Below, piece by piece: positions 1,457 to 53,120 of a stretch of DNA of 64,000 nucleotides (positions are counted from its first letter, which is position 1; each line of letters begins with the position of its first letter). The DNA is from Actinomadura luteofluorescens. Lineage in GTDB: Bacteria; Actinomycetota; Actinomycetes; Streptosporangiales; Streptosporangiaceae. Both the position numbers and the translations under genes were made by a program. Under the pieces are notes generated by a model, which was given only the letters and a program-made list of their open reading frames with translations, ran no database searches and had not been told where the DNA came from. The stretch covers positions 2,418,001 to 2,482,000 of the forward strand of contig NZ_JACCBA010000001.1 in assembly GCF_013409365.1 (NCBI RefSeq), read 5' to 3'.

Positions 1457-1545
1457 GCGATCGCGTCCGAAGGCAGGTTCGAGCGAAGCAAGAACCTGAT
1501 CGCGCAGCGAGCCGCAAGGCGAGCCGGAGCGATGCCAGCGATCGC
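1457..1545 (+). repeat. 89-bp interspersed structured repeat, copy 1
   Basis: The element starts and ends with GCGATCGC. Inside, positions 11-17 read CCGAAGG, a C(GAA)G mini-hairpin. Positions 18-24 and 36-42 (CAGGTTC and GAACCTG) form a 7-bp stem enclosing GCGAAGC. Positions 51-69 carry GCGAGCC twice. Copy 2 at 16809-16897 matches 87 of 89 bases in the opposite orientation. Copies 3 and 4 are at 49376 and 53032. On the minus strand it lies directly beyond the terminator-like hairpin of the first conservon. I do not recognise it as any named repeat family. Confidence 0.85.
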
Positions 1546-1547
1546 CT

Positions 1548-1596
1548 AGTTTTTCGACGATGGAGGGCCCTCCGGGCCCGAAGGAGGAGAAAAACT
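1548..1596 (-). terminator. Terminator-like hairpin after the first conservon, joined to repeat copy 1
   Basis: The arms AGTTTTTC (1548-1555) and GAAAAACT (1589-1596) are perfect complements around a GC-rich centre. The hairpin overlaps the TAA stop of the conservon GTPase gene at 1595-1597. A homologous block lies at 16759-16806, next to repeat copy 2, with its outermost base pair changed from A-T to C-G, so pairing is kept. Confidence 0.6.
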
Positions 1597-2200
1597 AATA
1601 AGCAAGCTGCCTGCCAGTGCTCATGGTTCGCATGATGTGTTCGACGAGGCTGATGAGGACGCGTTTGGCGTCTTCGCGGTCGCGGACGTCGCAGGAGATC
1701 ACGGGGATCTCCGGGGCGAGGTCGAGGGCGTCGCGGACCTGGTCGGCCGAGTGCTGACCGGCGCCGTCGAAGCGGTTGACCCCGATGATGAAGGGGACGC
1801 CTCGGCGTTCGAAGTAGTCGACCGAGGCGAAGCAGTCGGCGAGGCGGCGGGTGTCGACGAGGACGACCGCCCCGAGCGCACCCTTGGCCAGTTCGTCCCA
1901 CATGAACCAGAACCGGTCCTGGCCGGGGGTGCCGAAGACGAAGAGCACCAGGCCGTTGGGCAGGGTGATGCGCCCGAAGTCCATCGCCACGGTGGTGGTG
2001 GTCTTGGACGCGACGGCGGTGGTGTCGTCGATCCCGATGCTCTTCTCGGTCAGCGCCTCCTCGGTGCGCAGCGGGCGGATCTCGCTGACCGCGCTGACCA
2101 GGGTGGTCTTGCCGACGCCGAAGCCGCCGGCGACGAGGATCTTTACCGTCAGCGCCGAGTCGCCCTGGTGGGCGGCCGCGTCAGAGCGCACGGATTCCAT
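1595..2200 (-). CDS. cvnD: Conservon GTP-binding protein (CvnD-like), first conservon
   Basis: This is a 201-residue small GTPase of the ATP/GTP-binding family that closes actinomycete conservons. The P-loop GGFGVGKT sits at residues 25-32. The switch-II region reads FGTPGQDRFWFMW (about 89-101), where Ras has DxxG. The guanine-specificity motif is NRFD (142-145) in place of NKxD. It is the last gene of a four-gene minus-strand operon and overlaps the DUF742 gene by 20 bases. In known conservons the GTPase associates with the membrane kinase and the Roadblock protein in a GPCR-like signalling complex; its partners here are inferred from the operon. A hairpin overlaps its stop codon. Confidence 0.95.
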   Translation of the reverse strand: MESVRSDAAAHQGDSALTVKILVAGGFGVGKTTLVSAVSEIRPLRTEEALTEKSIGIDDTTAVASKTTTTVAMDFGRITLPNGLVLFVFGTPGQDRFWFMWDELAKGALGAVVLVDTRRLADCFASVDYFERRGVPFIIGVNRFDGAGQHSADQVRDALDLAPEIPVISCDVRDREDAKRVLISLVEHIMRTMSTGRQLAY

Positions 2201-2576
2201 CGATCACTTCCTTGAGTACGCGCTCGCTGGGGAACTGCGCCACCGGCGCGGGGCGCCGGACCTGTATCAGCGAGTGGTCGAGCAGGTCGCCGAGCAGGAC
2301 ACGGACGACCCCGAGGGGAAGTTCCAGATCCGACGCTATCTCGGCGACCGACAACGGGGTGCGGCAAAGCTCGAGGATCATGTCATGTTCCGGTTCCGGC
2401 GCCCATGGGGTCGCCGGAAGTGCGTGGGCGTCCTCCGCGGGCTCGGGCGGGTCGGCCGCGACGATCAGCGCGACCAGGTCGAACTCGACGCCGTCGTAGT
2501 GCGTCCGGCCCCGGGTGAGCGCGTACGGACGCACGACGGGGCCCGCCGCGTCGTCGTACCAGGCCGTGCCGCTCAT
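2181..2576 (-). CDS. cvnC: DUF742 protein (CvnC-like), first conservon
   Basis: A 131-residue protein with the family signature PYALTRGRT at about 17-25. A winged-helix segment, PLSVAEIASDLELPLGVVRV, follows near residues 74-93. The ATG at 2576 is chosen because it follows the Roadblock stop (TGA at 2580-2578) by one base; the frame continues upstream only as overlap with that gene. DUF742 proteins always accompany the Roadblock and GTPase genes of conservons and may bind DNA or act as adaptors, but their biochemical role is not established. The second conservon carries a paralogue at 6409-6789 with the same PYA(L/M)TRGRT signature. Confidence 0.93.
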   Translation of the reverse strand: MSGTAWYDDAAGPVVRPYALTRGRTHYDGVEFDLVALIVAADPPEPAEDAHALPATPWAPEPEHDMILELCRTPLSVAEIASDLELPLGVVRVLLGDLLDHSLIQVRRPAPVAQFPSERVLKEVIDGIRAL

Positions 2577-2577
2577 C

Positions 2578-3024
2578 TCACGCGCCGCCGTGCTCGGCCG
2601 CGGCGACGCGCGGGTTGGCCGACAGGTGCTGGCCGACCCGGGTGACGAGCATCGCCATCTCGTAGGCGATGATCCCGAGGTCGGCCTCGGCGTCGGCGAG
2701 GACGGCCAGGCAGGCGCCTCGTCCGGCGGCGGTGACGAAGAGGAACGACGATTCCATCTCCACGATCGTCTGCCGGACGGCTCCGCCGCCGAAGGACTCT
2801 CCGGCTCCGCGCGCGAGGCTCTGGAAGCTGGCGGCCACGGCGGACAGGTGGTCGGACTCCTCGCGGGCCAGCCCGCTGGAGGCGGCCATCCGCAGCCCGT
2901 CGCTGGACAGCACCACGGCGTTCTGCACGGGGGCGACCCGCTGGACGAGGCTGTCCAGGAGCCAGTTGAGTTCACCTCCGGCTCCGCCCGGGACCTCCGT
3001 GCCGGAGTGCTGGGGCTGTGTCAT
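2578..3024 (-). CDS. cvnB: Roadblock/LC7 domain protein (CvnB-like), first conservon
   Basis: A 148-residue protein with one Roadblock/LC7 domain, recognised by ELNWLLDSLVQRV near residue 18 followed by a segment like AVVLSSDGLRMAASSGL. These proteins dimerise and, in other systems, serve as GTPase-activating or scaffold partners of small GTPases such as the CvnD protein of the same operon. Its start overlaps the kinase stop by four bases, indicating translational coupling. It is closely similar to the Roadblock protein at 6793-7248. Confidence 0.95.
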   Translation of the reverse strand: MTQPQHSGTEVPGGAGGELNWLLDSLVQRVAPVQNAVVLSSDGLRMAASSGLAREESDHLSAVAASFQSLARGAGESFGGGAVRQTIVEMESSFLFVTAAGRGACLAVLADAEADLGIIAYEMAMLVTRVGQHLSANPRVAAAEHGGA

Positions 3025-5675
3025 GGGGCGTCGTCCTCCTGGTCGCCTTCGTTGCCCGCGGCCTCCGCGTCGGCCGCGTCCTGCCTGCCTCGCTGCCAGC
3101 CGAGTTGCATGGCCGACATCATCGAGCGCATCGACTCGGGCGAGCGGGCGGCGCCGTCGTCCGGGTCCTCGTCCGTGGGAACGGTCCCGGCCGTGTCGCG
3201 GCCGGTCCCGTCCGCGGGAGCGTCCATAGCGTCCATGGGGACGGGCGCGGCGAGCGGTACCGCCGGCTCCGGCGCGGGCGCCGCCGGGGGCGCGGCCGGT
3301 TCCGCAGCGGGCGGCGGGGCCTGGCCCTGCGCGGCGAGGTGCGCGTCCACCCGTTCCTTGAGCTGGGGAGCCAGGTGCTGCTGGCGCCTGCGTTTGGGCA
3401 GCTCACCCTCCCGCAGGGGCGGGGCGGGCTCCGGCGGCGGCTCGGCCCGGGCGGGCGCGGGCGGCGTCTCGGCCCGCCGCGGCGCCGCGGGCTCGGGCTC
3501 TTCGGCCGGGGCCGCCGGCCTGGGCGCGAGCGGGCCCGGTTCGGGCCGGTACGGCTCGGCCTCCGCGACGAGGCGGACGACCCCGGCGGACTCGCCGCGT
3601 CCGGGGGCGGCCGCCGGGCGGGCGGCGGCGGGGAGCGCCGCGGCGGGGCTCGGCAGTTTCTGCATGGGTCCGGTGGCGCGGCGCACGGCGGACGGTTCCG
3701 GTTCGGCGCTCTCCACGATGAGCGAGCTCGGGATCAGCGCGATCGCCGTCGTCCCCCCGTACGGGGACGGGCGCAGCGTGACGGTGATGTCCTGCCGCTC
3801 GGCCAGCCGGGCGACGACGAACAGCCCGAGCTGGGCGCTGTCGGACGGGTCGAACTCGGGCGGGTGGGCGAGCCGCTCGTTGGCGCGGCGCAGCGCCTCC
3901 TCGGTCATCCCGAGGCCGCGGTCCTCGACCTCGATCGCGAAGCCGCTGGCGACGGCCTGGCCGCTGACCCGCACGGGCGACTGCGGCGGCGAGAACGTGG
4001 TGGCGTTCTCCACCACCTCGGCGAGCAGGTGGATGACGTCGGCGACGGCGGAGCCGAGCAGCGAGACGCGCGGCAGCGGCTGCACCCGCACGCGCGGGTA
4101 GTCCTCGACCTCGGCGACGGCGCCGCGCACCACGTCCACCAGCGGGACGGGACGGCGCCAGCCGCGTCCGGCGGTCTTGCCGGCCAGGATGACCAGGCCT
4201 TCGGCGTGCCGGCGCATGCGCGTCGCGAGGTGGTCGAGGCGGAACAGGTCCGACAGCTCCGAGGGGTCCTCGGTGCGGCGCTCCATGGTGTCGAGCAGGC
4301 TGAGCTGGCGGTGCAGCAGCGCCTGGTTGCGGCGCGCGAGGTTGACGAACACCTCGCTGATGCCGCGGCGGGCCGCGACCTCGCCCTCGGCGGCGACGAG
4401 CACGGCCTCGCGGGCGCGGTCGAACGACTCGGCGATCTGCCGGATCTCGGTGATGCGGTAGTCGAGCTCGGGGGCGGCCTCGGGTTCGACGGGGGCGCCG
4501 GCGCGGATCTGCTCGGCCAGCAGCGGCAGCCGCGTGCGGGTGAAGTCGACGACGCCGGAGGCGAGCGTGCGGCACTCCTCCAGCAGCCGCCGCGACACCC
4601 GGACCGCGAGCAGCGCCGACAGGACGATCGCGATGAGGCCGACGCCGCCGGCGAGGCCGAGGCGGGTGAAGGCGCCGATCGCGATGTGCTGCCCGTGGTC
4701 GGCGACGTCGTCGAGGACCTTGTTCTCCAGCTGGAACAGCCGGCCGTTGGCGGTGTCGGCGAGGGACCGCCAGATGGCGGGGTCGATGACCGGCGCGTGC
4801 GGGGCGTGCGCGGCGGGCTGCCCGTTGCGGGCGCCCGCGGCGGGCTGGGCACCGGCCTCGCGGGTCTTGCGCACCGCGGTGCGGGGCGGTTCGGCGCCGC
4901 GGATGACCTGGTCCTCCAGCGTCCGCAGCTGGACGAACGGCGGCGACGCCGCGAGCCGCTCGTAGCGTCCGTGGTCGTCGTGCGGCAGGTTGGGCGCGTT
5001 GTCGGCGTACAGCATCCGCTGGGCGCCGACGAGCTGCGCGAACTCCCCGCGCTCGGCGGAGGTGATGTGCCCGGCGGCCAGGGCGCCGGTGAGCAGGGCG
5101 TCCTCGCGCGACATGAACTCGCGGGCGCGGCCGAAGGAGGCGAGCGTGCGGGCGTGCGCGGTGATGGACCCGTCCCCGGGCGTGGTCGCGTTGTAGACGG
5201 CGAAGCCCGCGTCGATGATGCCGCTGTACTCGCGCAGCACGCGCTCGCGGTCGGCGACCCGCTGGTCCACGCTCTGCCGGACGCCGCGCAGCGTGTCGAT
5301 CCGCTCCACGAACGCGTCCAGCCGCTCGACGACCAGGGGCAGGATCGAGCCCCGCAGGCCGCCGTCGCGCGCGCCCTCGCGGACCTTGTCGCTCGCCTCG
5401 TCGGTCGCCTGCCGCTGCGTCCGCATCACGCCGGCGTCCGTGCGGGCGCCGCCGAGTTCGGCCATCGTCAGCCGCCGCTCCTTCTGCAGCGCGTCGATGA
5501 GGTGCTGCGTGGGCAGCACGGTCTTCTCCTGGAAGTCGCGGCTCTGCAGCAGCTGGTTCGCGTCGCCGTAGGTGAAGCCCGTGAGGAACACCCAGAGCGA
5601 GGCGAGCGCCAGCAGCGGCACGAGGACCAGCAGGCTGATCCTCGCCCGGATGGAGGAGAAACGGGGGCCCATCAC
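3021..5675 (-). CDS. cvnA: NIT-domain sensor histidine kinase (CvnA-like), first conservon
   Basis: An 884-residue membrane kinase. A transmembrane helix at about 12-34 is followed by an extracytoplasmic nitrate/nitrite-sensing (NIT) type region to about 330 and a second helix near 335-357. A HAMP-like stretch and a DHp-like helix (LDHLATRMRRHAE, about 480-493) come next. The HATPase domain has N-box EVVENATTFSPP near 550 and a GLFVVARLA segment near 615. From about 650 the protein is Pro/Ala/Glu-rich and probably disordered, except for two short blocks: LAPQL near 767 and a RSPExxRS plus QxGWxRGR motif near the C-terminus. It heads the operon. Ligand and phosphotransfer partner are unknown; no response regulator is adjacent, as is typical of conservons. 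Confidence 0.94.
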   Translation of the reverse strand: MMGPRFSSIRARISLLVLVPLLALASLWVFLTGFTYGDANQLLQSRDFQEKTVLPTQHLIDALQKERRLTMAELGGARTDAGVMRTQRQATDEASDKVREGARDGGLRGSILPLVVERLDAFVERIDTLRGVRQSVDQRVADRERVLREYSGIIDAGFAVYNATTPGDGSITAHARTLASFGRAREFMSREDALLTGALAAGHITSAERGEFAQLVGAQRMLYADNAPNLPHDDHGRYERLAASPPFVQLRTLEDQVIRGAEPPRTAVRKTREAGAQPAAGARNGQPAAHAPHAPVIDPAIWRSLADTANGRLFQLENKVLDDVADHGQHIAIGAFTRLGLAGGVGLIAIVLSALLAVRVSRRLLEECRTLASGVVDFTRTRLPLLAEQIRAGAPVEPEAAPELDYRITEIRQIAESFDRAREAVLVAAEGEVAARRGISEVFVNLARRNQALLHRQLSLLDTMERRTEDPSELSDLFRLDHLATRMRRHAEGLVILAGKTAGRGWRRPVPLVDVVRGAVAEVEDYPRVRVQPLPRVSLLGSAVADVIHLLAEVVENATTFSPPQSPVRVSGQAVASGFAIEVEDRGLGMTEEALRRANERLAHPPEFDPSDSAQLGLFVVARLAERQDITVTLRPSPYGGTTAIALIPSSLIVESAEPEPSAVRRATGPMQKLPSPAAALPAAARPAAAPGRGESAGVVRLVAEAEPYRPEPGPLAPRPAAPAEEPEPAAPRRAETPPAPARAEPPPEPAPPLREGELPKRRRQQHLAPQLKERVDAHLAAQGQAPPPAAEPAAPPAAPAPEPAVPLAAPVPMDAMDAPADGTGRDTAGTVPTDEDPDDGAARSPESMRSMMSAMQLGWQRGRQDAADAEAAGNEGDQEDDAP

Positions 5676-5777
5676 GGCTGGCGGACCCTGCTCACGTGTG
5701 TCGCGGTCGGCATTGGGGGGCGGGACATGCGGGGGAAACCTCCCGATGCGTGGAGTACGGGGGTGTGCGGGAGCCTA

Positions 5778-6428
5778 CTACGTCGCGGGTTCACGATGAT
5801 CGGCCTTCCGGCCGCCGGGTGCCTCGTCCTCGTCGTCCGGCCAGCTCAGCACGTGCTCCATCAGCGTGACGAGGACCTCCTTGGACGACTCGCGGCGGCG
5901 CGCGTCGCACAGCACCACCGGGACGCCGGGGTCCAGGTCGAGCGCGATGGCGATGTCGCTCGGCCGGTGCGTCCGCTCGCCGTCGAAGCAGTTCACGGCC
6001 ACGACGAACGGGACGCCGCGGCGCTCGAAGTAGTCGATCGCGGGGAAGCTGCCGGTCAGCCGGCGCGTGTCGGCGAGCACGACCGCGCCGATCGCGCCCG
6101 CCGCCAGCTCGTCCCACATGAACCAGAACCGCTCCTGGCCGGGGGTGCCGAACAGGTAGAGCAGCAGCTGGTCCGACAGCGTGATCCGGCCGAAGTCCAT
6201 GGCGACGGTCGTGGTCGCCTTCGCGTCGACGCCGGACACGTCGTCGACCCCGGTGCCGCGGTCGCTGAGGGGTTCCTCGGTGTGCAGCGGCCGGATCTCG
6301 CTGACCGAGCCGACCAGGGTGGTCTTGCCCGCGCCGAACCCGCCCGCGATGAGGATCTTGGTGGTGACGAGCGGCCGGGCCGCGAGGCCCGGCCGCGCGG
6401 GCGGCCGGTCAGAGCGCGCGGAGTCCAT
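5778..6428 (-). CDS. cvnD: Conservon GTP-binding protein (CvnD-like), second conservon
   Basis: A 216-residue small GTPase paralogous to the protein at 1595-2200. The P-loop is GGFGAGKT (about 29-36), switch II reads FGTPGQERFWFMW, and the G4 motif is NCFD instead of NKxD. Relative to the first copy it has a longer C-terminal tail rich in Asp/Glu and Gly/Arg. It closes the second conservon and overlaps the DUF742 gene by 20 bases, exactly as in the first conservon. The 102 bases between it and the first conservon kinase start must carry any promoter for the downstream operon; no clear promoter stands out there. Confidence 0.94.
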   Translation of the reverse strand: MDSARSDRPPARPGLAARPLVTTKILIAGGFGAGKTTLVGSVSEIRPLHTEEPLSDRGTGVDDVSGVDAKATTTVAMDFGRITLSDQLLLYLFGTPGQERFWFMWDELAAGAIGAVVLADTRRLTGSFPAIDYFERRGVPFVVAVNCFDGERTHRPSDIAIALDLDPGVPVVLCDARRRESSKEVLVTLMEHVLSWPDDEDEAPGGRKADHREPAT

Positions 6429-6789
6429 TGAGCACCTCCCTCAGCACCCCGGTCGGGGGCCGCCGGCCCTCGGCCGGGCGCGCCTCGTCCACCACCGCGA
6501 CCAGGCCCTTGTCCCGCAGGTCGCCGAGCAGCACCCGCACGACGCCGATGGGCAGGCCGAGGTCGGCCGCGAGGTCGACCACCGTGACCGGCCGCGCGCA
6601 GCCCCGCAGCACCCGCGCGTGGTCGGGGCTGTAGCGCAGCCGGTCGCCCGGCGGGACGCCGGTGGCCGCGACCACCGCGATCAGCTCGAAGCCCGCGCCC
6701 TCGGGACGGGTCCGTCCCCGGGTCATCGCGTAGGGGCGTACGAGCGGCCCGGCCTCGCGGTCCAGCCAGCGCTCTCCCGGCGGGGTCAT
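6409..6789 (-). CDS. cvnC: DUF742 protein (CvnC-like), second conservon
   Basis: A 126-residue DUF742 protein with the signature PYAMTRGRT near residues 19-27 and the winged-helix segment DLAADLGLPIGVVRVLLGDL in the second half. It lies three bases after the Roadblock gene stop. Its paralogue at 2181-2576 shares the C-terminal VLxExxxGxRAL ending. The function within the conservon complex is not established. Confidence 0.92.
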   Translation of the reverse strand: MTPPGERWLDREAGPLVRPYAMTRGRTRPEGAGFELIAVVAATGVPPGDRLRYSPDHARVLRGCARPVTVVDLAADLGLPIGVVRVLLGDLRDKGLVAVVDEARPAEGRRPPTGVLREVLNGLRAL

Positions 6790-6792
6790 CGG

Positions 6793-7248
6793 TCAGAAGC
6801 CCCGCGGCGCGGACCCCCCGGCGCCTCCGAACCCCTGACCGCCCGTGTCCGTCCCGAACCTCGGGCTCGCCTGCAGGTGCTGGCCGACGCGCTTGACCAG
6901 CACCGCCATCTCGTAGGCGACCAGTCCGGCGTCGGCCTCCGCCTCCGCGAGCACGGCCAGGCAGGTGCCGTCGCCGGCCGCCGTGACGAACAGCAGCAGC
7001 GCGTCCATCTCGATGATGGTCTGCCGGACGTTGCCGCCCGCGAAGTGCCGGCCGGCGCCGCGGGCGAGGCTCTGCACGCCGGACGCCAGCGCCGACAGGT
7101 GCTCGGCGTCCTCCCGGGCGAGCTCGTTGGAGGCGGCGACGGCGAGCCCGTCACGCGACAGGATCACCGCCTGCCGCACCGTCGTGACCCGCTGGGCGAA
7201 GTCGTTGAGCAGCCAGTTCAGCTCACCGGTCACGGTGTTGTGCATCAT
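6793..7248 (-). CDS. cvnB: Roadblock/LC7 domain protein (CvnB-like), second conservon
   Basis: A 151-residue Roadblock/LC7 protein. ELNWLLNDFAQRV lies near residue 8, followed by AVILSRDGLAVAASNELA, the same fold landmarks as in the first conservon. The C-terminal 25 residues are Gly/Ser-rich and differ between the two copies. It overlaps the kinase stop by four bases, so it is probably translationally coupled to the kinase. The family role as GTPase partner is known; the specific pairing with the GTPase at 5778-6428 is inferred from the operon. Confidence 0.94.
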   Translation of the reverse strand: MMHNTVTGELNWLLNDFAQRVTTVRQAVILSRDGLAVAASNELAREDAEHLSALASGVQSLARGAGRHFAGGNVRQTIIEMDALLLFVTAAGDGTCLAVLAEAEADAGLVAYEMAVLVKRVGQHLQASPRFGTDTGGQGFGGAGGSAPRGF

Positions 7249-9821
7249 CGGGTCCCTTCATCCCCCATGTCGGACGCGCGTCCGCGCCGCCATCCCTGCT
7301 GTATCGATGCCATCAGCGAGCGTGCCTCCTCGGGCGAGCGTGCGACTGCCCCGTTCGCGGTTCCGCCGGGCGGCGGTGGCGACGGGGGATTCTTGCGCAG
7401 TTGCGGGGCCAGGTTCCTCTGCCTGACGCGGCGGGGCAAACCGGCGTGCGTTCCGGCGGGCTGCCAGTCCTCGCCGGCGGCCTCGGCGGTGTCCTCGTCG
7501 GCGGCGCCGCCGGGGCCCTCGGCCTCCGGCGTGTGGGCGTCGTCCGACCAGGGGTTCGGGGCGGGACGCGGCGGTGCGGGCGGCATCGGCCGGGCCGGGA
7601 CGCCCCACGGCGTCGCGGGCGCCGGGTCCGAGGCGGGCGCCTGGGGTCCGGTGAGCGCGGGCAGCGCGGGCGGCGCCTCCAGGTGGCCGCCGGCGCCCTC
7701 CAGGTGCCCTGGAGCGTTCCGCTGCCCGTGCCGCGGGTCGTCCGCGGGACGGGCGAGCTCGGCGGGGTCGCGGAGCGGAACGACCCCTTCGGGGACGGGC
7801 GCGGCCATGAGCATCGCCTCCCGCTCCGGTCCCCCGTCGACGGCGGTCCCCGTCAGGGCCGCGGGCGCGTCCTCGGGCCCGTGCGCGGGCGGCGGCACCC
7901 CGGCGGCCATCTCCTCGGCCGACACCACCAGCTCGTGCGGGAACAGGACGATCGCGGTCACGCCGCCGTACGGGGACCGGTGGAGCGTGACGGTGATGTC
8001 GTGGCGGGCGGCCAGCCGCGCGACGACGAACAACCCGAGCTGGTCGGTGTCGACCAGGTCGTACTCGGGCGGCTCGGCGAGCCGCCGGTTGGCCTCGGCG
8101 AGCTGCTCCGGCTTCACGCCGAGGCCCCGGTCCTCGACCTCGACCGCGTACCCGGTGCCGACCCGCTCGGCCATCACCCGCACCTCGGTGTTGGGCGGCG
8201 AGAACGCCGCCGCGTTCTCGATCAGCTCGGCCAGCAGGTGCACGACGTCGGTGACGGCCGCGCCGACCAGCCCGTCCTCGGAGTCGGTGAGCACGGTCGC
8301 GCGGGTGTAGTCCTCGATCTCCGAGACGGCGGCGCGCAGCACGTCGGCGAAGCGCACCGGCCGCCGCCAGCCGCGCCCCGGCGTCGCGCCGGACAGGATG
8401 ATGAGGCTCTCGGCGTGCCGCCGCATGCGGGTGGTGAGGTGGTCGATGCGGAACAGGTCTTCCAGGTCGTCGGCTTCGGCGCGGCTCTCCAGGCCGTCCA
8501 GCAGCGTCAGCTGGCGGTGCAGGAGCGACTGGTTGCGGCGGGCGATGTTGAGGAAGATGCGGCTGACGCCCGCGCGCAGCTCGGCCTGCCCGACGGCGGC
8601 GTCGACGGCGGTCCGCTGCACCTTGGCGAACGCCTCGGCGAGCCGGGCGACCTCGGCGGTGCGGCCGGCGTCCAGGGGCGGGGCCTCCGCGGCGACGTCC
8701 ACGGTCTCGTTGCGGCCGAGCCGCTCGACGATGCCGGGCAGCCGCTGCTCGGCCAGTTCCTCGGCCGATCCGCGCAGCCCGACGAGCTCGCGGACGAAGC
8801 CCCGCGCGAACCGCAGCGACAGCAGCACCGACAGCAGGATCGCCAGCAGGCCGAGGCCGCCGACGGCGGCGAGCCTCAGGTAGGCCTCGCGGCCGAGGTC
8901 GTCGGCGTGCTCCCCGGCGCGCCTGGAGTTGCCGAGCACCATCGCGTTGACCGACAGCACGAGCGGCTGCGCCGTGCGCTGCCATTCGCCGGGCTGGACG
9001 GGGATCGGCCGGCGCGGGTCGGCGTCGGCGATCCGGTCCTCCATCGCCTTGAACGTCTGGTACCGCGGGGACGCGAACACCTGCGCGGTGCCGGTCCGGT
9101 AGACGACCGGGTCGAGCAGCGAGCGCTGCTTGGTCCACTGCCAGCGCTGCTCGCCGACCATCTCCACGAACATGCGGTGCTCGGCCGCCGTCATCCGGCC
9201 CTTGGTGATGAACGCGCCCGCGACCAGCGCGTTCTCCCGCTGGAGCAGCTCCATGCCGCGGCCCGCGTGCCGGGTGGACTGCGTCCAGTCGTAGAGCGCC
9301 GAGTCGTCGATGGCCACGAGGCTGTCGTAGAGCCGGTGCATGTTGTCGACCATCGTGCCGTACCCGTTGACCGCGGCCAACCGGTCGACGGACCGGGCGT
9401 CGACCGCGGCGCGCAGCCCGCCGAGCCCGCCGAGCGCCCGCAGGACCGCGGAGACGCGCGACTCCATCTCGGCGTTCGTGGCGCTGCGCGCGGCGTCGGA
9501 GGTGGCCTTGCGGCGGAAGTTCTCGACGGCGTCGTCGAGGCGCGAGCGCTGCGACACCAGGGCGGCGGGGATGCCGCCCGCGGCCTGGCGCGGGGTGCTG
9601 AGGAACACGGCCGAGGCCAGCCGCTCCTTGCCGAGCTCGACCAGGACGCCCTGCCCGCTCGGCGCGAACTCGCGGTCGAGCGTGTGGTAGCGGCGCTGGG
9701 CGAGCGCGTCGCGGCCGGTGATGATCGCGGCGTATCCCCAGAGCGCGACGAGCGAGAGCAGCGGCACCAGCAGCAGCGCGGTGACCTTCGAGCGGATCGA
9801 CCGCCTACGGGGGGATTTCAT
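7245..9821 (-). CDS. cvnA: NIT-domain sensor histidine kinase (CvnA-like), second conservon
   Basis: An 858-residue membrane kinase homologous to the one at 3021-5675. The ATG at 9821 is preferred over in-frame upstream starts because a GAGGTCAC ribosome site precedes it and the basic segment MKSPRRRS then leads straight into the first membrane helix (about 10-32). A NIT-type sensor region follows, with a second helix near 315-340 and an HATPase N-box LIENAAAFSPP near 530. A long Pro/Ala-rich tail carries the short blocks LPRRVRQRNLAPQL and, at the end, RSPEEARS with QQGWRRGR. Both C-terminal blocks recur in the other kinase despite poor similarity between them. It heads the second conservon. 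Confidence 0.94.
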   Translation of the reverse strand: MKSPRRRSIRSKVTALLLVPLLSLVALWGYAAIITGRDALAQRRYHTLDREFAPSGQGVLVELGKERLASAVFLSTPRQAAGGIPAALVSQRSRLDDAVENFRRKATSDAARSATNAEMESRVSAVLRALGGLGGLRAAVDARSVDRLAAVNGYGTMVDNMHRLYDSLVAIDDSALYDWTQSTRHAGRGMELLQRENALVAGAFITKGRMTAAEHRMFVEMVGEQRWQWTKQRSLLDPVVYRTGTAQVFASPRYQTFKAMEDRIADADPRRPIPVQPGEWQRTAQPLVLSVNAMVLGNSRRAGEHADDLGREAYLRLAAVGGLGLLAILLSVLLSLRFARGFVRELVGLRGSAEELAEQRLPGIVERLGRNETVDVAAEAPPLDAGRTAEVARLAEAFAKVQRTAVDAAVGQAELRAGVSRIFLNIARRNQSLLHRQLTLLDGLESRAEADDLEDLFRIDHLTTRMRRHAESLIILSGATPGRGWRRPVRFADVLRAAVSEIEDYTRATVLTDSEDGLVGAAVTDVVHLLAELIENAAAFSPPNTEVRVMAERVGTGYAVEVEDRGLGVKPEQLAEANRRLAEPPEYDLVDTDQLGLFVVARLAARHDITVTLHRSPYGGVTAIVLFPHELVVSAEEMAAGVPPPAHGPEDAPAALTGTAVDGGPEREAMLMAAPVPEGVVPLRDPAELARPADDPRHGQRNAPGHLEGAGGHLEAPPALPALTGPQAPASDPAPATPWGVPARPMPPAPPRPAPNPWSDDAHTPEAEGPGGAADEDTAEAAGEDWQPAGTHAGLPRRVRQRNLAPQLRKNPPSPPPPGGTANGAVARSPEEARSLMASIQQGWRRGRASDMGDEGTR

Positions 9822-16085: not shown

Positions 16086-16757
16086 ATGCGCAGCCAGTTC
16101 TTCGGCAACCTCGAACAGGGACAGCAGCTCCCCGGCCACTTCGCCCTCCAGAACTCCAAGATGCTCCGGATCCACCTGAACGGCGACGTCCTCGCCCGCC
16201 AGGGCTCCATGGTCGCCTTCCAGGGCCAGATGGAGTTCGACTACGAGGGCGCGGGCGGCATCGGCAAGTTCATGAAGAAGGCCCTGACCGGTGAGGGCGT
16301 CCCCCTCATGCGCGTCAAGGGCCAGGGCCTGCTGTTCGCCGCGAACGACGCCGACGACATCCACCTGTTCTACCTGGAGAACGAGGGCATCACCGTCAAC
16401 GGCAAGAACATCCTCGCCTACGACTCGCACCTCCAGTCCGACATCCAGCGCGTCCAGGGCGCCGGAATCGCCGCGGGCGGCCTGTTCAACACCACCCTCC
16501 ACGGCACCGGCTGGGTGGCGCTCACCACACATGGCACCCCGGTGATGCTCGACTGCGGCCGCGCCCCCACGTTCGCCGACGGCCAGTCCGCCGTCGCGTG
16601 GAGCACGAGCCTCCAGGTCGGCGTCAACCGCACCTTCAAGGCCAGCGCCCTCATCGGCCGCGGCAGCGGCGAAGCGATGCAGCTCGCCTACCAGGGCCAA
16701 GGCTTCGTCCTCATCCAGGCCTCCGAGGGCCCAACGGTTGCCCCGCACACCCACTAG
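16086..16757 (+). CDS. AIM24 family protein
   Basis: A 223-residue protein of the AIM24/DUF124 family, a single beta-rich domain without signal peptide or membrane helices. Landmarks are the opening segment LQNSKMLRIHLNGDVLARQGSM, then FEYEG-like MEFDYEGAGGIGKFMKKALTG, and later GAGIAAGGLFNTTLHGTGWVALTTHG. The family is found in bacteria and yeast mitochondria; its biochemical activity is not settled. Its stop is followed within two bases by a hairpin and repeat copy 2, so its transcript probably ends there. Confidence 0.88.
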   Translation: MRSQFFGNLEQGQQLPGHFALQNSKMLRIHLNGDVLARQGSMVAFQGQMEFDYEGAGGIGKFMKKALTGEGVPLMRVKGQGLLFAANDADDIHLFYLENEGITVNGKNILAYDSHLQSDIQRVQGAGIAAGGLFNTTLHGTGWVALTTHGTPVMLDCGRAPTFADGQSAVAWSTSLQVGVNRTFKASALIGRGSGEAMQLAYQGQGFVLIQASEGPTVAPHTH

Positions 16758-16758
16758 C

Positions 16759-16806
16759 GTTTTTCTCCTCCTTCGGGCCTGGCGGCCCTCCATCGTCGAT
16801 AAACGC
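16759..16806 (+). terminator. Terminator-like hairpin joined to repeat copy 2
   Basis: This block is homologous, in inverse orientation, to 1548-1596 near copy 1. Its arms CGTTTTTC and GATAAACG pair with one mismatch around a GC-rich centre. It begins directly after the AIM24 stop codon and runs T-rich first on the transcript strand. Confidence 0.55.
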
Positions 16807-16808
16807 GG

Positions 16809-16897
16809 GCGATCGCTGGCATCGCTCCGGCTCGCCTTGCGGCTCGCTGCGCGATCAGGTTCTCGCTTCGCTTGAACCTGCCTTCGGACGCGATCGC
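16809..16897 (-). repeat. 89-bp interspersed structured repeat, copy 2
   Basis: The ends are GCGATCGC at 16809-16816 and 16890-16897. It differs from copy 1 at only two loop positions, and the 7-bp stem and CCGAAGG mini-hairpin are unchanged. Its orientation relative to the upstream gene (AIM24) is the same as that of copy 1 relative to the conservon: gene end, hairpin, then element. The rest of the 457-base gap to kgd is covered by the partial copy at 16969 and an unassigned leader. Confidence 0.85.
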
Positions 16898-16968
16898 AAC
16901 CATCGAGGTCGTCGCCGGTTGCTGTGATGGCTGAGGTAGTTGCGGTAGTGGGTTCTGGTGGCGGGCAC

Positions 16969-16994
16969 GGCTCGCTGCCTTTGGACGTGATCGC
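16969..16994 (-). repeat. Deletion derivative of the 89-bp repeat
   Basis: The segment joins the GGCTCGCTGC part of the element to its GGACGYGATCGC end and lacks the stem-loop between them. It lies about 70 bases from full copy 2. Another TGCCTTTGG segment at 17079-17087 may be a further fragment. Nothing else was recognised between here and the kgd start at 17215. Confidence 0.45.
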
Positions 16995-17214
16995 AAACGG
17001 CCAGGTCATCGCGTGGTTTCGGCGATGGCCGAGGAGGGGTGAGGACGTTGGTAGATCTTGCCAGAGGCACGGCCCTGCCTTTGGCCGGTTCAGCCAACGG
17101 CGGGGGCGGTGTGGGCGGGGATGCGACACGCTGGCGTGGTGCGGGGGCAAGTGCGAGTAGCCTTGTTGCGTCTCAGAACTTACCTGCGAGCTGCGGAAGA
17201 GGGCGATCTCCGCC

Positions 17215-49111: not shown

Positions 49112-49285
49112 GCACGGCACGAGCGAAGCGAGAGCCACCCCGCGAAGCGAGCCACCAGGCGAGCCGAAGCGCCCCGCCACCCCCACAACCCGCACCGAAA
49201 CAACGCACGGCACGAGCGAAGCGAGGGCCAACCGCGAAGCGAGCCGCAAGGCGAGTCGAAGCGCCACAGCACCCCCCACAACCCG
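49112..49285. repeat. Two tandem 81-bp units related to half of the 89-bp repeat
   Basis: The units at 49112-49192 and 49205-49285 begin GCACGGCACGAGCGAAGCGAG and end CCCACAACCCG. Each contains GCGAAGCGAGCC-N4-GGCGAG(C/T)CGAAGCG, which corresponds to positions 46-75 of the full element. They fill the space after the sugar kinase gene. No coding sequence is recognised in 49090-49375. Confidence 0.65.
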
Positions 49286-49375
49286 AGGTAGACCCCCGCA
49301 TACGCACCCCACCGAAACCCCCCGCTCCGCACACATCACCCGCCACCACAGCACCCCGAACGAGGGTTCACCGTC

Positions 49376-49464
49376 GCGATCGCGTCCGAAGGCAGATTCG
49401 AGCGAAGCAAGAATCTGATCGCGCAGCGAGCCGCCAGGCGAGCCGGAGCGATGCCAGCGATCGC
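49376..49464 (+). repeat. 89-bp interspersed structured repeat, copy 3
   Basis: Full-length copy with GCGATCGC at both ends. The stem reads CAGATTC/GAATCTG instead of CAGGTTC/GAACCTG, a G-C to A-T compensatory change. Position 60 is C rather than A. A perfect 23-base hairpin follows immediately at 49468. Unlike copies 1, 2 and 4, no gene ends on the hairpin side; the anti-sigma gene begins 87 bases beyond. Confidence 0.85.
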
Positions 49465-49467
49465 ACC

Positions 49468-49516
49468 GCGTTGCGTTGGGTTGGGGCGCCCCAGGCGCCC
49501 CAACCCAACGCAACGC
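49468..49516. terminator. Perfect 23-base-arm hairpin joined to repeat copy 3
   Basis: Arms 49468-49490 and 49494-49516 are exact reverse complements with a 3-base loop. This is the longest perfect inverted repeat noticed in the window. It could be a strong terminator on either strand or extrude as a cruciform. It has no sequence similarity to the hairpins at copies 1, 2 and 4. Confidence 0.7.
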
Positions 49517-49602
49517 AAATAAACACAGCGCGCCGGAGTCTCGATGCACGGCTCGTAGGCGGTAGTTTCGAAGGCAGCGGGACCATCCTGCGAGGGAGTG
49601 AC

Positions 49603-50031
49603 GTGACCGAGGAAACCGCTGCAATGCCGGCCAGTACGAAGTTGTCCGTCCGTGACGTGGTCACGGTGAAGTTGCCTGCCGCGAGTGCCTACCTGTCCGT
49701 GCTGCGGACCGCGACCGCGGGCCTGGCGGCCAGGTTGGACTTCACGCTGGACGAGATCGAGGACCTGCGCATCGCCGTTGACGAGGCGTGCGCGATGCTG
49801 CTCGCTCAGGCGGTGCCCGGCACCGATCTGACGTGCGAGTTCGAGTTGACCGGGGAGGCGATGCGCATCTCTGTGTCGGTTCTGACGGTGGACGGTGAGG
49901 AGCCGAGCCGCGACACGTTCGCGTGGACGGTGTTGTCGTCTCTGGCGGGCGAGGTGGACGCCAGGGTGGGCTCCGACGACCGGGTCACCGTGACGCTGCA
50001 GAAGCGTCGCGGTGCGGCGGGGGCCCCGTGA
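49603..50031 (+). CDS. Anti-sigma factor, RsbW-like ATPase
   Basis: A 142-residue GHKL-type serine kinase/anti-sigma protein. The N-box region reads EIEDLRIAVDEACAMLL, and the opening VRDVVTVKLPAASAYLSVLRTA is typical of RsbW/UsfX. The GTG at 49603 has a GAGGGAG site. It overlaps the sigma factor gene by four bases (GTGA), the usual rsbW-sigB/sigF arrangement, so it should hold that sigma factor inactive until an anti-anti-sigma factor releases it. No anti-anti-sigma gene is in the window. Confidence 0.92.
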   Translation: MTEETAAMPASTKLSVRDVVTVKLPAASAYLSVLRTATAGLAARLDFTLDEIEDLRIAVDEACAMLLAQAVPGTDLTCEFELTGEAMRISVSVLTVDGEEPSRDTFAWTVLSSLAGEVDARVGSDDRVTVTLQKRRGAAGAP

Positions 50032-50858
50032 CGGAGAAGACGACGACGGAGCAGACGACGGTCGCCGGGGCGAGCACCGAGCGTTCGGACAGCAGTGCCG
50101 TGCCGGATCGGGCGCGGGCGCGTGCGTTGTTCGAGCGTCTCGCCCAGTTGCCTGAGGGCGACCCGGAGCGCCAGCGCATCCGTGATCAGCTCGTGGAGCT
50201 GCATCTGCCGCTGGTGGAGTATCTCGCGCGGCGCTTCCGCAATCGTGGTGAGTGGCTGGACGACCTGATCCAGGTCGCCACGATCGGGTTGATCAAGTCG
50301 ATCGACCGGTTCGATCTGGAGCGGGGGGTGGAGTTCTCCACCTATGCCACGCCGACGATCGTCGGTGAGATCAAGCGGCATTTCCGCGACAAGGGCTGGG
50401 CGGTGCGGGTGCCGCGCCGGCTGCAGGAGCTGAAGCTGTCGCTGACGAAGGCGATCAGTGATCTCGCGCAGCGGGAGGGCCGCGCTCCGACGGTGAGCGA
50501 GCTGGCGGCGCACCTGCAGATGAGCGAGGAGGAGGTGCTGGAGGGGCTGGAGTCGGCGAACGCCTATTCCACGGTGTCCCTCGACGCGCCTGACTCCGGT
50601 GACGAGGACGCCCCGGCGGTGGCGGACTCGCTCGGCATGGTGGACGAGTCGTTGGAGGGCGTGGAGTACCGCGAGTCCCTCAAGCCGCTGCTGGAGAAGC
50701 TCCCGGCGCGGGAGAAGAAGATTCTTCTGCTGCGTTTCTTCGGCAACATGACGCAGTCGCAGATCGCGGCGGAGCTGGGCATTTCGCAGATGCACGTGTC
50801 GCGGCTGCTGGCGCGGACGCTGGCGCAGCTCCGTGACGGCCTGACGGCGGACGAGTAG
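50028..50858 (+). CDS. SigB/SigF/SigG subfamily RNA polymerase sigma factor
   Basis: A 276-residue alternative sigma factor. Region 2 contains LVEYLARRFRNRGEWLDDLIQVATIGLIKSIDRF and GVEFSTYATPTIVGEIKRHFRD. Region 3 begins VPRRLQELKLSL. Region 4 ends with QIAAELGISQMHVSRLLARTL. It is coupled to the anti-sigma gene. The subfamily governs stress and developmental genes in actinomycetes. A SigF-type GTTT-N15-GGGTAT promoter was looked for upstream of the pair and not found. A hairpin at 50872-50907 ends the operon. Confidence 0.94.
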   Translation: MTEKTTTEQTTVAGASTERSDSSAVPDRARARALFERLAQLPEGDPERQRIRDQLVELHLPLVEYLARRFRNRGEWLDDLIQVATIGLIKSIDRFDLERGVEFSTYATPTIVGEIKRHFRDKGWAVRVPRRLQELKLSLTKAISDLAQREGRAPTVSELAAHLQMSEEEVLEGLESANAYSTVSLDAPDSGDEDAPAVADSLGMVDESLEGVEYRESLKPLLEKLPAREKKILLLRFFGNMTQSQIAAELGISQMHVSRLLARTLAQLRDGLTADE

Positions 50859-50871
50859 CGGGTGTTGTGCG

Positions 50872-50907
50872 GAAGGGGCCCCGGGGACGCGTCCTCAGGG
50901 CCCTTTC
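50872..50907. terminator. Terminator-like hairpin after the sigma factor gene
   Basis: GAAGGGGCCC and GGGCCCTTTC pair over ten bases with one G-T wobble around a GC-rich loop. It is placed between convergent genes. Confidence 0.5.
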
Positions 50908-50916
50908 GACGTCGGG

Positions 50917-51435
50917 TCAGTTCTTGCTGTTCTTGGTGGGCTGTTCGTTGAGGCGGTCTTTGAGGCGCCGTCCGAGGGAGCGGGGCTCTCCGGGGGGTGG
51001 CGCGGCGGCCGGTTCGGCGGTTTCGGTGTCGTTCACGGGGGTGTCGCCGTCTTCGTCGTGGTCGTCGATGAGCCAGGCGGTGCTCGGCGGGCTGAGGACG
51101 GTGATCAGCGCGAGGACGGCGACGGCGCCCAGCGGGACGGCGATCGCGGGGCGGTCGCTCTGCCACAGCGACCAGGCGATCGGCAGGGCGAACAGCTGGG
51201 TGAGGACGGTGGGGGCGCGGCTCCACTGGGCGGCGCGGAGGAGTCCGCGGGCGCAGCCCAGCATGCCGAGGCCGCCGGCGAGGGCGAGGACGGTGACCCC
51301 GATCGCGCTGGCCGGGTCGACGGCGGCGCCGGTGGCGGTCTCGACGCCGGTGAAGACGCCGAATCCGACGGCTGCGGCGCCCTCCGCGGCCTGGAGGGCG
51401 GCGGCGGCCTGCACGGTGAAGGGACGCTTGGTCAC
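50917..51435 (-). CDS. Conserved membrane protein of unknown function
   Basis: A 172-residue protein with four predicted membrane segments: about 7-28, 40-60, 75-90 and 95-118. A charged cytoplasmic tail follows (DDHDEDGDTPVND... RRLKDRLNEQPTKNSKN). The opening TKRPFTVQAAAALQAAEG resembles other small actinomycete integral membrane proteins without assigned function. It is convergent with the sigma factor operon. Confidence 0.75.
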   Translation of the reverse strand: MTKRPFTVQAAAALQAAEGAAAVGFGVFTGVETATGAAVDPASAIGVTVLALAGGLGMLGCARGLLRAAQWSRAPTVLTQLFALPIAWSLWQSDRPAIAVPLGAVAVLALITVLSPPSTAWLIDDHDEDGDTPVNDTETAEPAAAPPPGEPRSLGRRLKDRLNEQPTKNSKN

Positions 51436-51524
51436 ACCCCGAAACCCTACTCGCCCCGTGCGGCGGCCGGCTCTCAGGGGAAACTGCGGGCGAACGCATC
51501 CGGAACGCTCGATACCCTGACGCC

Positions 51525-52466
51525 GTGCGCGCCATGCTCATCGCCAACCCCAAGGCGACCTCCACCTCCCGGCGGGCCCGCGACATCCTCGTGCGGGCCT
51601 TCTCCGGCGATCTCGATCTCGTTCTCGCGGAGACCGGTCACCGCGGCCACGCGACCGAGCTGGCCCGGCAGGCCGCCGTCGAGGGCTACGAGGTCGTGAT
51701 CGCTCTCGGCGGGGACGGGACGGTGAACGAGGCCGTCAACGGGCTGCTGGCGGACGGTCCGTCCCCTGATCTGCCCGCGCTGGCGGTGCTGCCGAGCGGG
51801 AGCGCGAACGTGTTCGCCCGCGCGCTCGGCCTGCCGGACGATCCGATCGGCGCGACGCGGTCGGTGCTGGAGGCGCTGCGGGCGGGCCGGTACCGGTCGG
51901 TGGGGCTCGGCACGGCCTCCCATCCCGGGGCCCCGGAGCGGTATTTCACGTTCTGCGCGGGGGTGGGGCTGGACGCGGAGGTCGTGCGGGAGGTGGAGCG
52001 GCGCCGGGAGGCGGGCCTGCGGGCGGACCCGTCGCTGTATGTGCGGACCGCGATACGGCATTTCTTCTCCGGCACTGATCGGCGCCGTCCGGCGCTCACT
52101 TTGGAACAGCCCGGTCGCCCGCCGAAATCGGGGTTGTTCCTGGCGTTCATCTCCAATACGTCTCCATGGACTTTCATGGGCCGGGTGCCGTTGAATCCGA
52201 GTCCGAAGGCGAACTTCGCGCGCGGGCTGGACGTGTTCGGGATGCGTTCTCTGGAACTCGGCGCGACGCTGGGGGCGCTGGCGCAGATGCTGACTCCGCG
52301 GGCGTATCCCATTCAGGGGCGCCACGTGCTGAACCTGCACGATGAGGCGGAGGTCACGGTGCGCGCGGACCGGCCCGTGGCGTTCCAGCTGGACGGCGAC
52401 TACCTGGGAGAGCACCGGACGGTCACGTTCCGCTCCGTGCCGAAGGCGATCCGCATCGTCATTTGA
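51525..52466 (+). CDS. Diacylglycerol kinase family lipid kinase
   Basis: A 313-residue DAGK_cat enzyme. The N-terminal ANPKATSTSRRARDIL and the ATP-binding GGDGTVNEAVNGLL (about 64-77) are diagnostic, with PSGSANVFAR (GTAND-like) near 93. It phosphorylates diacylglycerol or a related lipid such as a phosphatidylinositol mannoside precursor; mycobacterial homologues do so. The start is GTG (or an in-frame ATG three codons later). It is upstream of the WhiB gene on the same strand but separated by a regulatory region. Confidence 0.92.
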   Translation: MRAMLIANPKATSTSRRARDILVRAFSGDLDLVLAETGHRGHATELARQAAVEGYEVVIALGGDGTVNEAVNGLLADGPSPDLPALAVLPSGSANVFARALGLPDDPIGATRSVLEALRAGRYRSVGLGTASHPGAPERYFTFCAGVGLDAEVVREVERRREAGLRADPSLYVRTAIRHFFSGTDRRRPALTLEQPGRPPKSGLFLAFISNTSPWTFMGRVPLNPSPKANFARGLDVFGMRSLELGATLGALAQMLTPRAYPIQGRHVLNLHDEAEVTVRADRPVAFQLDGDYLGEHRTVTFRSVPKAIRIVI

Positions 52467-52510
52467 GGCGCGCGAGGACGCATGTGAGAGCCAAGTAACA
52501 CGCCCGACCG

Positions 52511-52536
52511 ATGGGTGTGACACATGCGACACCCAT
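52511..52536. promoter_or_regulatory. Inverted repeat upstream of whiB1/wblE
   Basis: ATGGGTGT (52511-52518) and ACACCCAT (52529-52536) are exact complements with a 10-base spacer. The right half also contains TGTGACACATGCGACA, a partial CRP-type site (52516-52531). A second dyad, CTTTGAGA/TCTCAAAG with a 6-base spacer, follows at 52538-52559, and CTCAAAG recurs at 52592-52598. Confidence 0.5.
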
Positions 52537-52700
52537 ACTTTGAGAATCCTTTCTCAAAGGTCTTGCGTCTGCCCGCACCCTCCTGAAACGCTCAAAGTGC
52601 GCCACCCGGCAGGGACCCCAACGTCGCTGGTCACCTGCTCGCGGCGCCGCGGAACAACCATCCCTGGACCTGGCCACAGCCACCCCGGGCGTTCGCGACA

Positions 52701-52716
52701 TGTGAACCCGTTCACA
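52701..52716. promoter_or_regulatory. CRP-type operator upstream of whiB1/wblE
   Basis: TGTGAACCCGTTCACA matches the CRP/FNR consensus TGTGA-N6-TCACA at all ten defined positions and is a 16-base near-palindrome (7-base perfect arms). It ends 43 bases before the WhiB start codon. In Mycobacterium tuberculosis the whiB1 promoter is bound by the cAMP receptor protein Rv3676, so conservation of control is plausible. Confidence 0.65.
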
Positions 52717-52758
52717 AAGAGTGGAGCATCTCCACCACCTGACGAAGGAGTGGACCGC

Positions 52759-53007
52759 ATGGACTGGCGCCACCGCGCAGCCTGCCGTGACGTGGACCCC
52801 GAGCTCTTCTTCCCCATCGGCAACACCGGCCCCGCGATCCTGCAGATCGAAGAAGCCAAGCAGGTCTGCCGCCGCTGCGACGTCAGCGACGCCTGCCTGC
52901 GCTGGGCGCTCGAGTCCGGCCAGGAATCCGGCGTCTGGGGCGGCATGGGCGAAGACGAACGCCGCGCTCTCCGTCGTTCCCGCCGTGCCCTTAGCGTCAG
53001 GCGCTAG
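52759..53007 (+). CDS. wblE: WhiB family iron-sulfur regulator (WhiB1/WblE type)
   Basis: An 82-residue protein. Four cysteines bind a [4Fe-4S] cluster: one in RAACRD, then CRRC and DAC in the order CxxC...C. The GVWGGMG turn and a basic C-terminus (RRALRRSRRALSVRR) for DNA binding follow. The AAGGAG site supports the ATG at 52759. The neighbour PdtaS gene on the opposite strand reproduces the Rv3219-Rv3220c neighbourhood of mycobacteria, which supports the WhiB1/WblE assignment. The cluster senses nitric oxide in WhiB1. A CRP-type site and other dyads precede it. Confidence 0.94.
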   Translation: MDWRHRAACRDVDPELFFPIGNTGPAILQIEEAKQVCRRCDVSDACLRWALESGQESGVWGGMGEDERRALRRSRRALSVRR

Positions 53008-53031
53008 AGCGCCTTCCTTGCGGGCACGGCC

Positions 53032-53120
53032 GCGATCGCTGGCATCGCTTCGGCTCGCCTGGCGGCTCGCTGCGCGATCAGTTTCTCGCTTCGCTTGAAA
53101 CTGGCTTCGCACGCGATCGC
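53032..53120 (-). repeat. 89-bp interspersed structured repeat, copy 4
   Basis: Full-length copy with GCGATCGC at both ends. In element orientation the stem reads CAGTTTC/GAAACTG, a third compensated state. The mini-hairpin reads GCGAAGC instead of CCGAAGG, again with both partners changed (C11-G17 to G11-C17). A hairpin with arms GCCGTGCCC (52982-52990) and GGGCACGGC (53022-53030) precedes it, overlapping the end of the WhiB gene. The order gene end, hairpin, element is as at copies 1 and 2. Confidence 0.85.

Follow-up and report, generated by a model that had tools for sequence, protein, structure and literature searches.

A genus-specific family of folded interspersed repeats in Actinomadura

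A folded repeat occurs four times in a 64 kb stretch of genome

We analysed a 64,000 bp stretch of DNA from Actinomadura luteofluorescens (contig NZ_JACCBA010000001.1), referred to here as the window. The window spans bases 2418001 to 2482000 of a 9.62 Mb single-contig genome (9622362 bp). It carries four copies of an interspersed repeat of 89 bp, each with the sequence GCGATCGC at both ends. A first-pass annotation of the window had described these copies and their stems, and inspection confirmed the description. In element orientation, the 7 bp stem is CAGGTTC/GAACCTG in copies 1 and 2, CAGATTC/GAATCTG in copy 3 and CAGTTTC/GAAACTG in copy 4. Similarly, a mini-hairpin reads CCGAAGG in copies 1–3 and GCGAAGC in copy 4. 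Compared with copy 1, the other copies are 98% (copy 2), 97% (copy 3) and 91% (copy 4) identical.

Two properties ascribed to the repeat hold for the window copies but not for the family. First, the motif GCGAAGC occupies the main loop of all four copies but is missing from many relatives; the loop is GCTTGC, GCCTGC or GCGTGC in 45 of the 195 copies parsable by expression. Second, the length of exactly 89 bp is not a family trait, copies elsewhere being mostly 87–91 bp long. The consensus fold, derived from 215 distinct sequences, pairs GCGATCGC at one end with GCGATCGC at the other. This closing stem encloses three hairpins. A further hairpin, the right-hand hairpin, comes after the 89 bp core.

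Paired changes preserve the fold of the core

Covariation was counted on an edited RNAalifold consensus, to which the mini-hairpin and one main-stem pair had been added. Two inner pairs of the third hairpin, drawn by the automatic consensus at columns 55–74 and 56–72, were omitted from the counted structure. The former was broken in 18 of 103 cores; the latter was intact in all 103, as C-G or U-G. These 103 diverse cores, comprising 99 of 100 picks from 186 distinct cores plus the four window copies, formed our first alignment. Paired bases accounted for 98.8% of counted stem cells. Both partners had changed in 75 cells, compared with 13.0 in shuffled alignments (0 of 500 shuffles). Sliding the partners reduced pairing to 14–36%.

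Paralogous copies can convert one another. Hence, we also tested a single orthologous site, downstream of sahH. The alignment used 28 of 32 cores; the four dropped were second or third copies of the same locus, one of them diverged. In these 28 genomes, 99.1% of stem cells were paired and 9 of 27 pairs were double-changed. Double-changed cells numbered 49, against 15.1 in shuffles (0 of 500), and slid controls were 20–37% paired. The closing stem at this site switches from the usual GCGATCGC ends to GCGATTGC/GCAATCGC in six copies and to CCGATCGC/GCGATCGG in one; another copy of the family has GTGATCGC/GCGATCAC. Thus, each end pairs with the other, and the ends are more than two copies of one palindrome. 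In several copies the main stem gains an extra base pair, inserted on both sides.

Changes were then mapped onto a tree built from a few hundred bases of flanking coding DNA (26 of 28 cores; 58 of 61 loci). The closing pair needed at least 3 changes (shuffled mean 6.3) and the mini-hairpin pair at least 6 (8.7). At least 10 were required at the main-stem pair with most variation, compared with 12.8 after shuffling, and another main-stem pair required 7 compared with 6.7.

In neither alignment did the stem columns vary independently. Compensatory change was far above the shuffled and slid controls, which supports the earlier proposal of selection for folded DNA or RNA. Selection, or a process that depends on pairing, keeps the core in a fold whose paired 8 nt ends enclose three hairpins.

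The core lies within a modular unit of ~195 bp

An alignment of 67 copies with their flanks shows that conservation extends past the 89-mer. The conserved unit is ~195 bp long and consists, in order, of a C-rich lead of ~45 nt (CTCAGCC..CACCGCAACCACGCAACAACCTCAA), the core, the right-hand hairpin and the end GCAATAAACACAGC. Units are tandemly repeated at several places in the genome, with a period of ~190–210 bp. Within the core, tandem G.A steps (CGAG/CGAG) occur in the main and third hairpins, and are present in the third hairpin of 102 of 103 cores. Of 211 parsed copies, 168 have a GNNA loop in the third hairpin (79 GNRA and 89 GNYA). Cores at two loci (L099:7354–7456 and L160:4271–4373) contain additional sequence (GGGGGCGGAGACGC or GGGGGCTGAGGCAC) in the region of the main-hairpin left arm.

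Of 217 right-hand hairpins classified by pattern, 144 are type A, 15 are type B and 58 are neither; some of the 58 look type B-like by eye. A perfect stem of 18–24 bp follows the core in 9 of the 217. Type A hairpins have a purine-rich internal loop. Their 74 distinct arm pairs are 81% Watson-Crick, compared with 53% when partners are shuffled. Hence, the arms vary freely in sequence while complementarity is largely retained. By eye, we suspect that the strands of the internal loop are swapped between type A and type B. The parts of the window copies are listed in Table 1.

Table 1. Parts of the repeat family in the window
Feature	Position	Strand	Remarks
Folded 89 bp core, copy 1	1457..1545	+	
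Folded 89 bp core, copy 2	16809..16897	-	
Folded 89 bp core, copy 3	49376..49464	+	
Folded 89 bp core, copy 4	53032..53120	-	GCGAAGC mini-hairpin, CAGTTTC stem
C-rich lead, copy 1	1409..1456	+	start approximate; conserved left flank, 67-copy alignment
Lead, copy 2	16898..16943	-	outer end approximate
Lead, copy 3	49332..49375	+	conservation weak; outer end approximate
Lead, copy 4	53121..53160	-	conservation weak; outer end approximate
Right-hand hairpin, copy 1	1548..1596	+	type A (GACGATGGAGG..CCGAAGGAGG); arms AGTTTTT/AAAAACT
Right-hand hairpin, copy 2	16757..16806	-	type A; arms GCGTTT/AAACGC
Right-hand hairpin, copy 3	49468..49516	+	perfect 23 bp inverted repeat, 3 nt loop; replaces type A
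Conserved end module, copy 3	49517..49529	+	AAATAAACACAGC
Right-hand hairpin, copy 4	52983..53029	-	type B-like by eye; arms CCGTGCCC/GGGCACGG
Solitary third-hairpin fragment	1358..1384	+	GCAGCGAGCCGCAAGGCGAGCC
Two solitary fragments, main and third hairpin	49121..49264	+	GAGCGAAGCGAG.., GCGAAGCGAGCCNCNAGGCGAG
Apparent decayed second unit beside copy 2	16969..17000	-	GGCTCGCTGCCTTTGGACGTGATCGC; by eye

Copies favour the 3' ends of genes

Genes were called with our own codon-score script, which missed at least one gene (the WhiB gene at copy 4), and the counts of context below are therefore approximate. Outside called genes lay 69 of 70 copies, one of which overlaps a called gene end by 32 nt. 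Thus, the copies are not chance fragments of genes.

The 55 element-bearing intervals comprised 28 convergent, 24 tandem and 3 divergent cases. Other intervals of more than 100 bp in the same stretches comprised 11 convergent, 81 tandem and 47 divergent cases (Fisher p 2e-10 for the convergent class). Between tandem genes, the element had its hairpin side turned towards a stop codon in 23 of 32 copies (p 0.02). In 55 copies, the called gene on the far side of the hairpin is directed towards it. The stop codon of that gene was 45–75 nt from the core, and thus at the hairpin edge, in 25 of these and elsewhere in 30. The upstream called gene was co-directional with the element in 41 of 70 cases. 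Taken together, copies favour gene 3' ends.

Three window copies illustrate this arrangement. A convergent called gene (1595–2200, minus strand) has a stop codon that overlaps the 3' arm of the right-hand hairpin of copy 1. The corresponding hairpin of copy 2 starts at the stop codon (16755–16757) of a called gene that encodes an AIM24 domain. In copy 4, the hairpin contains the stop codon of the WhiB gene (53005–53007).

In the 52759–53029 region, the last codons and the stop of the WhiB gene seem to be supplied by copy 4.

The family is specific to the genus Actinomadura

Across the genome, the strict pattern GCGATCGCGT-N58..82-CGATCGC has 68 matches, and its reversed control has none. Hence, a chance origin is excluded. 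By eye, 66 of the 68 matches are elements; those at 332923 and 5263441 are unrelated. BLAST against fetched stretches of the genome returned 70 copies of at least 75 bp, 67 of which aligned across all 89 bp.

The same pattern was used to scan 65 genomes of the genus. Matches were found in 62, with at least 10 matches in 34 and up to 68 per genome; the reversed control gave 0 in each of the 65. Low counts include chance coding matches (by eye, in genomes G037, G150 and G154). Thus, searching the genome and its relatives with the consensus, as the first-pass annotation had advised, yielded many copies and a genus-wide spread. A covariance model of the core, run on 150 genomes of the wider family, matched 4 of the 5 from the genus and none of the 145 others. 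Here, 29 candidates were scored per genome under stricter filters; the counts are therefore floors and weak matches may be lost.

An exact 21-base right-end pattern was found in at least 120 stretches of named-species genomes. Among 80 matches listed, 76 were from Actinomadura and four were scattered elsewhere; none of the four non-Actinomadura stretches had a full element. In all, 108 of 120 stretches with a right-end match held 151 full copies, 150 of them with usable flanks. Genes adjoining the elements match Actinomadura loci, with protein identity up to 99%. The element family is specific to the genus Actinomadura.

The first-pass annotation had not recognised the family. Rfam gave 0 matches in the window at gathering score, and none around copy 1 with E up to 5. 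The literature searched gave no description of the family; it was mostly without subscription papers, and a description elsewhere is possible. Among the best 15 of 992 papers in one wider search none concerned Actinomadura, and among the best 20 of 5,430 in another none gave GCGATCGC. The single paper retrieved for interspersed repeats in Actinomadura concerns sequencing (PMC5486853), and none was retrieved for repetitive extragenic elements. We conclude that this is a real, strongly structured, genus-wide family, not found described in what could be searched.

Occupancy of the sahH site differs between species

All 65 genus genomes have sahH. We examined 61 sahH places (60 of 66 plus the source genome's own, leaving out G162, G206, G208, G153 and the second G180 place; the region L323 was only 109 bases long as examined). 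The element was present downstream in 29 of the 61. In 26 cases the hairpin was toward sahH and in three the orientation was the other. At other loci too, one gene pair can have, depending on the species, the element in either orientation, a remnant of it or no element. In the source genome, the gene after sahH points the same way as sahH. Given this direction and the orientation of the sahH copies, no neighbour would transcribe the lead-to-hairpin strand of most copies there.

On the flank tree, occupancy required at least 11 changes, compared with 19.5 after shuffling. Some element-free sites look like remnants of loss; others have only a plain GC-rich hairpin. A similar hairpin persists beyond the sahH element in the source genome.

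At one locus (L220:5577–8541), two sahH-like genes are in tandem with an element between them.

A second folded family shares flank motifs with the first

A second folded element, GCGAACGCGTGA..CGCGTTCGCCC, also has 68 pattern matches in the same genome and occurs in 12 of the 65 genus genomes. Copies include L256–L270 on G000:C1, and none are listed within the window. The motif CCTCRGCC precedes the core in both families, and both finish with AACACAGC. Second-family copies sometimes lie between CTAG sequences: of 33 examined, 7 had one at each end.

In the genome stretches and the window, CTAG is strongly depleted in called coding DNA (0.06 per kb, compared with 1.6 per kb outside), and 43 of 413 called stops read CTAG.

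Discussion

The lead, the right-hand hairpin, the end-to-end pairing, the preference for gene 3' ends, the genus spread and the second family all go beyond the first-pass annotation. Our best reading, to which we give about an even chance, is that these are new, genus-specific, non-autonomous and modular mosaic repeats of ~195 bp, with a core recognised as folded single-stranded DNA. The 89 nt core would be recognised in this form by a mobilising or DNA-processing protein acting in trans. The right-hand hairpin may be a terminator-like barrier in RNA, which would make insertion at stop codons tolerable. We lean towards a core that acts as DNA and a right-hand hairpin that acts as RNA.

Several observations favour DNA for the core. 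Mismatches have no wobble bias, with 22 G.T and 20 A.C in 183 distinct cores. GNA and GNNA loops are described, in the part of the source available, as forming extraordinarily stable DNA mini-hairpins (PMC4686876), and the core loops are consistent with such structures. At sahH, 99.1% of stem cells pair although the strand of most copies would be antisense to its neighbours. Finally, 23 of 32 copies between co-directional genes are oriented so that no neighbour would transcribe the lead-to-hairpin strand.

Several results weigh against this reading or against the covariation counts. The main-stem states fit the flank tree barely better than shuffled states; gene conversion, re-insertion or a weak tree may be inflating the counts of paired change. 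At least one mismatch was found in 37 of 195 parsed main stems, one loop-proximal pair was non-standard in 30 of 215 cells, and the third-hairpin inner pairs of the automatic consensus, omitted from our counts, were unpaired in 37 to 39 of 215 at two positions. Distinct arms of the right-hand hairpin contain 45 G.T but 11 A.C (p 5e-6, the arms not being independent events), an excess that speaks for RNA or for strand-biased mutation. For the element strand, RNA energies gave z -2.6 and -3.1 against shuffles, compared with -1.8 and -2.4 for the reverse strand; DNA energies exceeded shuffles less clearly (z -1.7 and -2.0). Differences in occupancy include evident losses, seen as remnants, and thus are not all new insertions. 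There was no clean target-site duplication at the few filled and empty pairs compared. Moreover, no mobilising protein emerged from this genome, in which only Y1 transposase, reverse transcriptase and Y2 were searched. Y1 transposase (PF01797) and reverse transcriptase (PF00078) had no match in this genome, while the controls matched in 5 of 14 and 3 of 14 genomes respectively. Y2 had no match here, nor in any control genome.

The strongest competitor is that the element acts as RNA, as a structured 3' untranslated region or small-RNA module that protects or processes messenger RNA ends. Such a module would comprise the lead, a multi-branched domain and a terminator-like hairpin. Enterobacterial ERIC or YPAL repeats are thought to do this. 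Such a role is possible, and we rate it somewhat less probable than recognition as DNA. It would fit the wobble excess of the right-hand hairpin, the high share of convergent intervals (28 of 55) and the co-directional upstream genes (41 of 70). Furthermore, the RNA fold of the copy 1 element strand (z -2.6) contains the covarying closing, main and third stems. Conversely, the minimum-energy RNA fold of copy 4 differs from the covarying one, the core lacks wobble bias and GNRA is not preferred in the third-hairpin loop. The strand in question has no transcribing neighbour in 23 of 32 tandem copies and in most sahH copies, and Rfam has no match.

More doubtful is the idea that the core represents a rabbit-ear replication structure copied to internal sites, as a telomere-like module of folded single-stranded DNA bound by one protein. 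That protein would copy the element into gene ends and use the fold at replication forks. If true, the elements would represent a mobile class that has no Y1 transposase, no reverse transcriptase and no inverted termini, and one machinery would serve two unrelated-looking families that share CCTCRGCC and the AACACAGC end. The Streptomyces telomere is ~90 nt long, and its first palindrome pairs with part of the fourth, enclosing hairpins with sheared G:A loops (PMC4513846). Judged from the part of that source available, it is the closest printed architecture that we met; this is a likeness of shape, not membership. Copies of the Streptomyces telomere are terminal, whereas the Actinomadura elements are internal.

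Two candidates were rejected. A coding reading fails because length variants of 87–91 bp break any frame, although single copies have open frames. A telomere origin was rejected since there are no terminal copies, the outer 900 bases of each contig end having been read by eye. The outermost element matches, at 132962 and 9367567 of 9622362, lie 133 kb and 255 kb inside the ends of the contig. The Tpg terminal protein (NF047541) had no match in the genome, but the control genomes were silent too.

Paired changes might also arise with no selection, if template switching in replication (quasi-palindrome correction) copied one arm onto the other. Some stem changes are indeed two-sided without intermediates, as at the mini-hairpin pair (CG in 192 and GC in 23 of 215), and perfect 18–24 bp hairpins follow the core in some copies (9 of 217, as above). 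We nevertheless think this improbable. Features that are not Watson-Crick persist uncorrected: the CGAG/CGAG tandem G.A (102 of 103), GNNA loops and the purine-rich loop of type A. In addition, the closing-stem arms are ~73 nt apart yet covary.

We judge equally unlikely that the element is a miniature inverted-repeat transposable element. It would then derive by deletion from an insertion sequence of the DDE type, carry terminal inverted repeats and duplicate its target at stop codons that read CTAG. CTAG near both ends of some sister-family copies (7 of 33 examined), and the terminal AACACAGC shared by both families, would fit. However, by inspection the two ends of the consensus, CTCAGCC.. 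and ..AACACAGC, do not form an inverted repeat; CTAG has no sharp peak at first-family ends; and the few filled and empty pairs lack a clean duplication.

Least credible is membership of the REP/RAYT type, with movement by a Y1 tyrosine transposase. The elements are palindromic, mostly intergenic, in arrays and in both orientations, but Y1_Tnp is absent from the genome with 68 pattern matches (control positive in 5 of 14 genomes), REPs are shorter than core and unit by a factor of two to ten, and GTAG is not in the consensus ends. In the parts of the literature available, REPs are 20–40 bp long with a GTAG or CGTC end (PMC3733652, PMC2817692, PMC3116915). The Actinomadura family resembles REP, BIME and REPIN sequences, as described there, in being palindromic and extragenic, in having tens to hundreds of copies per genome and mosaic arrays, and in often lying near genes. 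Unlike REPs, it has a core of mostly 87–91 bp, a unit of ~195 bp and a multi-branched fold with a closing stem, and occurs, as far as searched, in one genus. Its core ends are GCGATCGC, not GTAG or CGTC. The core does contain an internal CGTC, but the final C of this motif belongs to a stem and has been replaced in 23 of 215. Unlike GTAG-tagged REPs, the elements reside in a genome with no Y1 transposase match.

Other known repeats are closer in size. ERIC, YPAL, RU and other small mobile sequences of other bacteria are 100–200 bp, intergenic and folded, some beside stop codons, and have terminal inverted repeats. The Actinomadura element is similar in size, intergenic location and folding, and some copies adjoin stop codons. 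Unlike these repeats, its pairing ends enclose three hairpins and a separate hairpin of free sequence follows. The right-hand hairpin resembles actinobacterial hairpin terminators in its position at stop codons and in having free but complementary arms. Unlike terminators, it has no T-run; the consensus after it is GCAATAAACAC. Moreover, the plain GC-rich hairpin that persists beyond the sahH element in the source genome is like that of relatives lacking the element. Integron attC sites, which come with an integrase and conserved R boxes, offer a further analogy.

A single sequence is usually the basis for calling a bacterial interspersed repeat folded. Here, compensatory change backs the fold, and does so at an orthologous site across the genus as well. 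The genus is a natural experiment: a genome may contain as many as 68 pattern matches, filled and empty sites are known, and the hairpins are free in sequence. Hence, the role of a folded repeat at gene ends, and the mover of elements without inverted ends or a recognised transposase, are now testable. With the covariance model, the family can be annotated in Actinomadura genomes.

Other features of the window

Positions 1762–8605 contain two adjacent blocks, ~4.2 kb apart, with DNA 73–77% alike, as if several genes had been duplicated in tandem.

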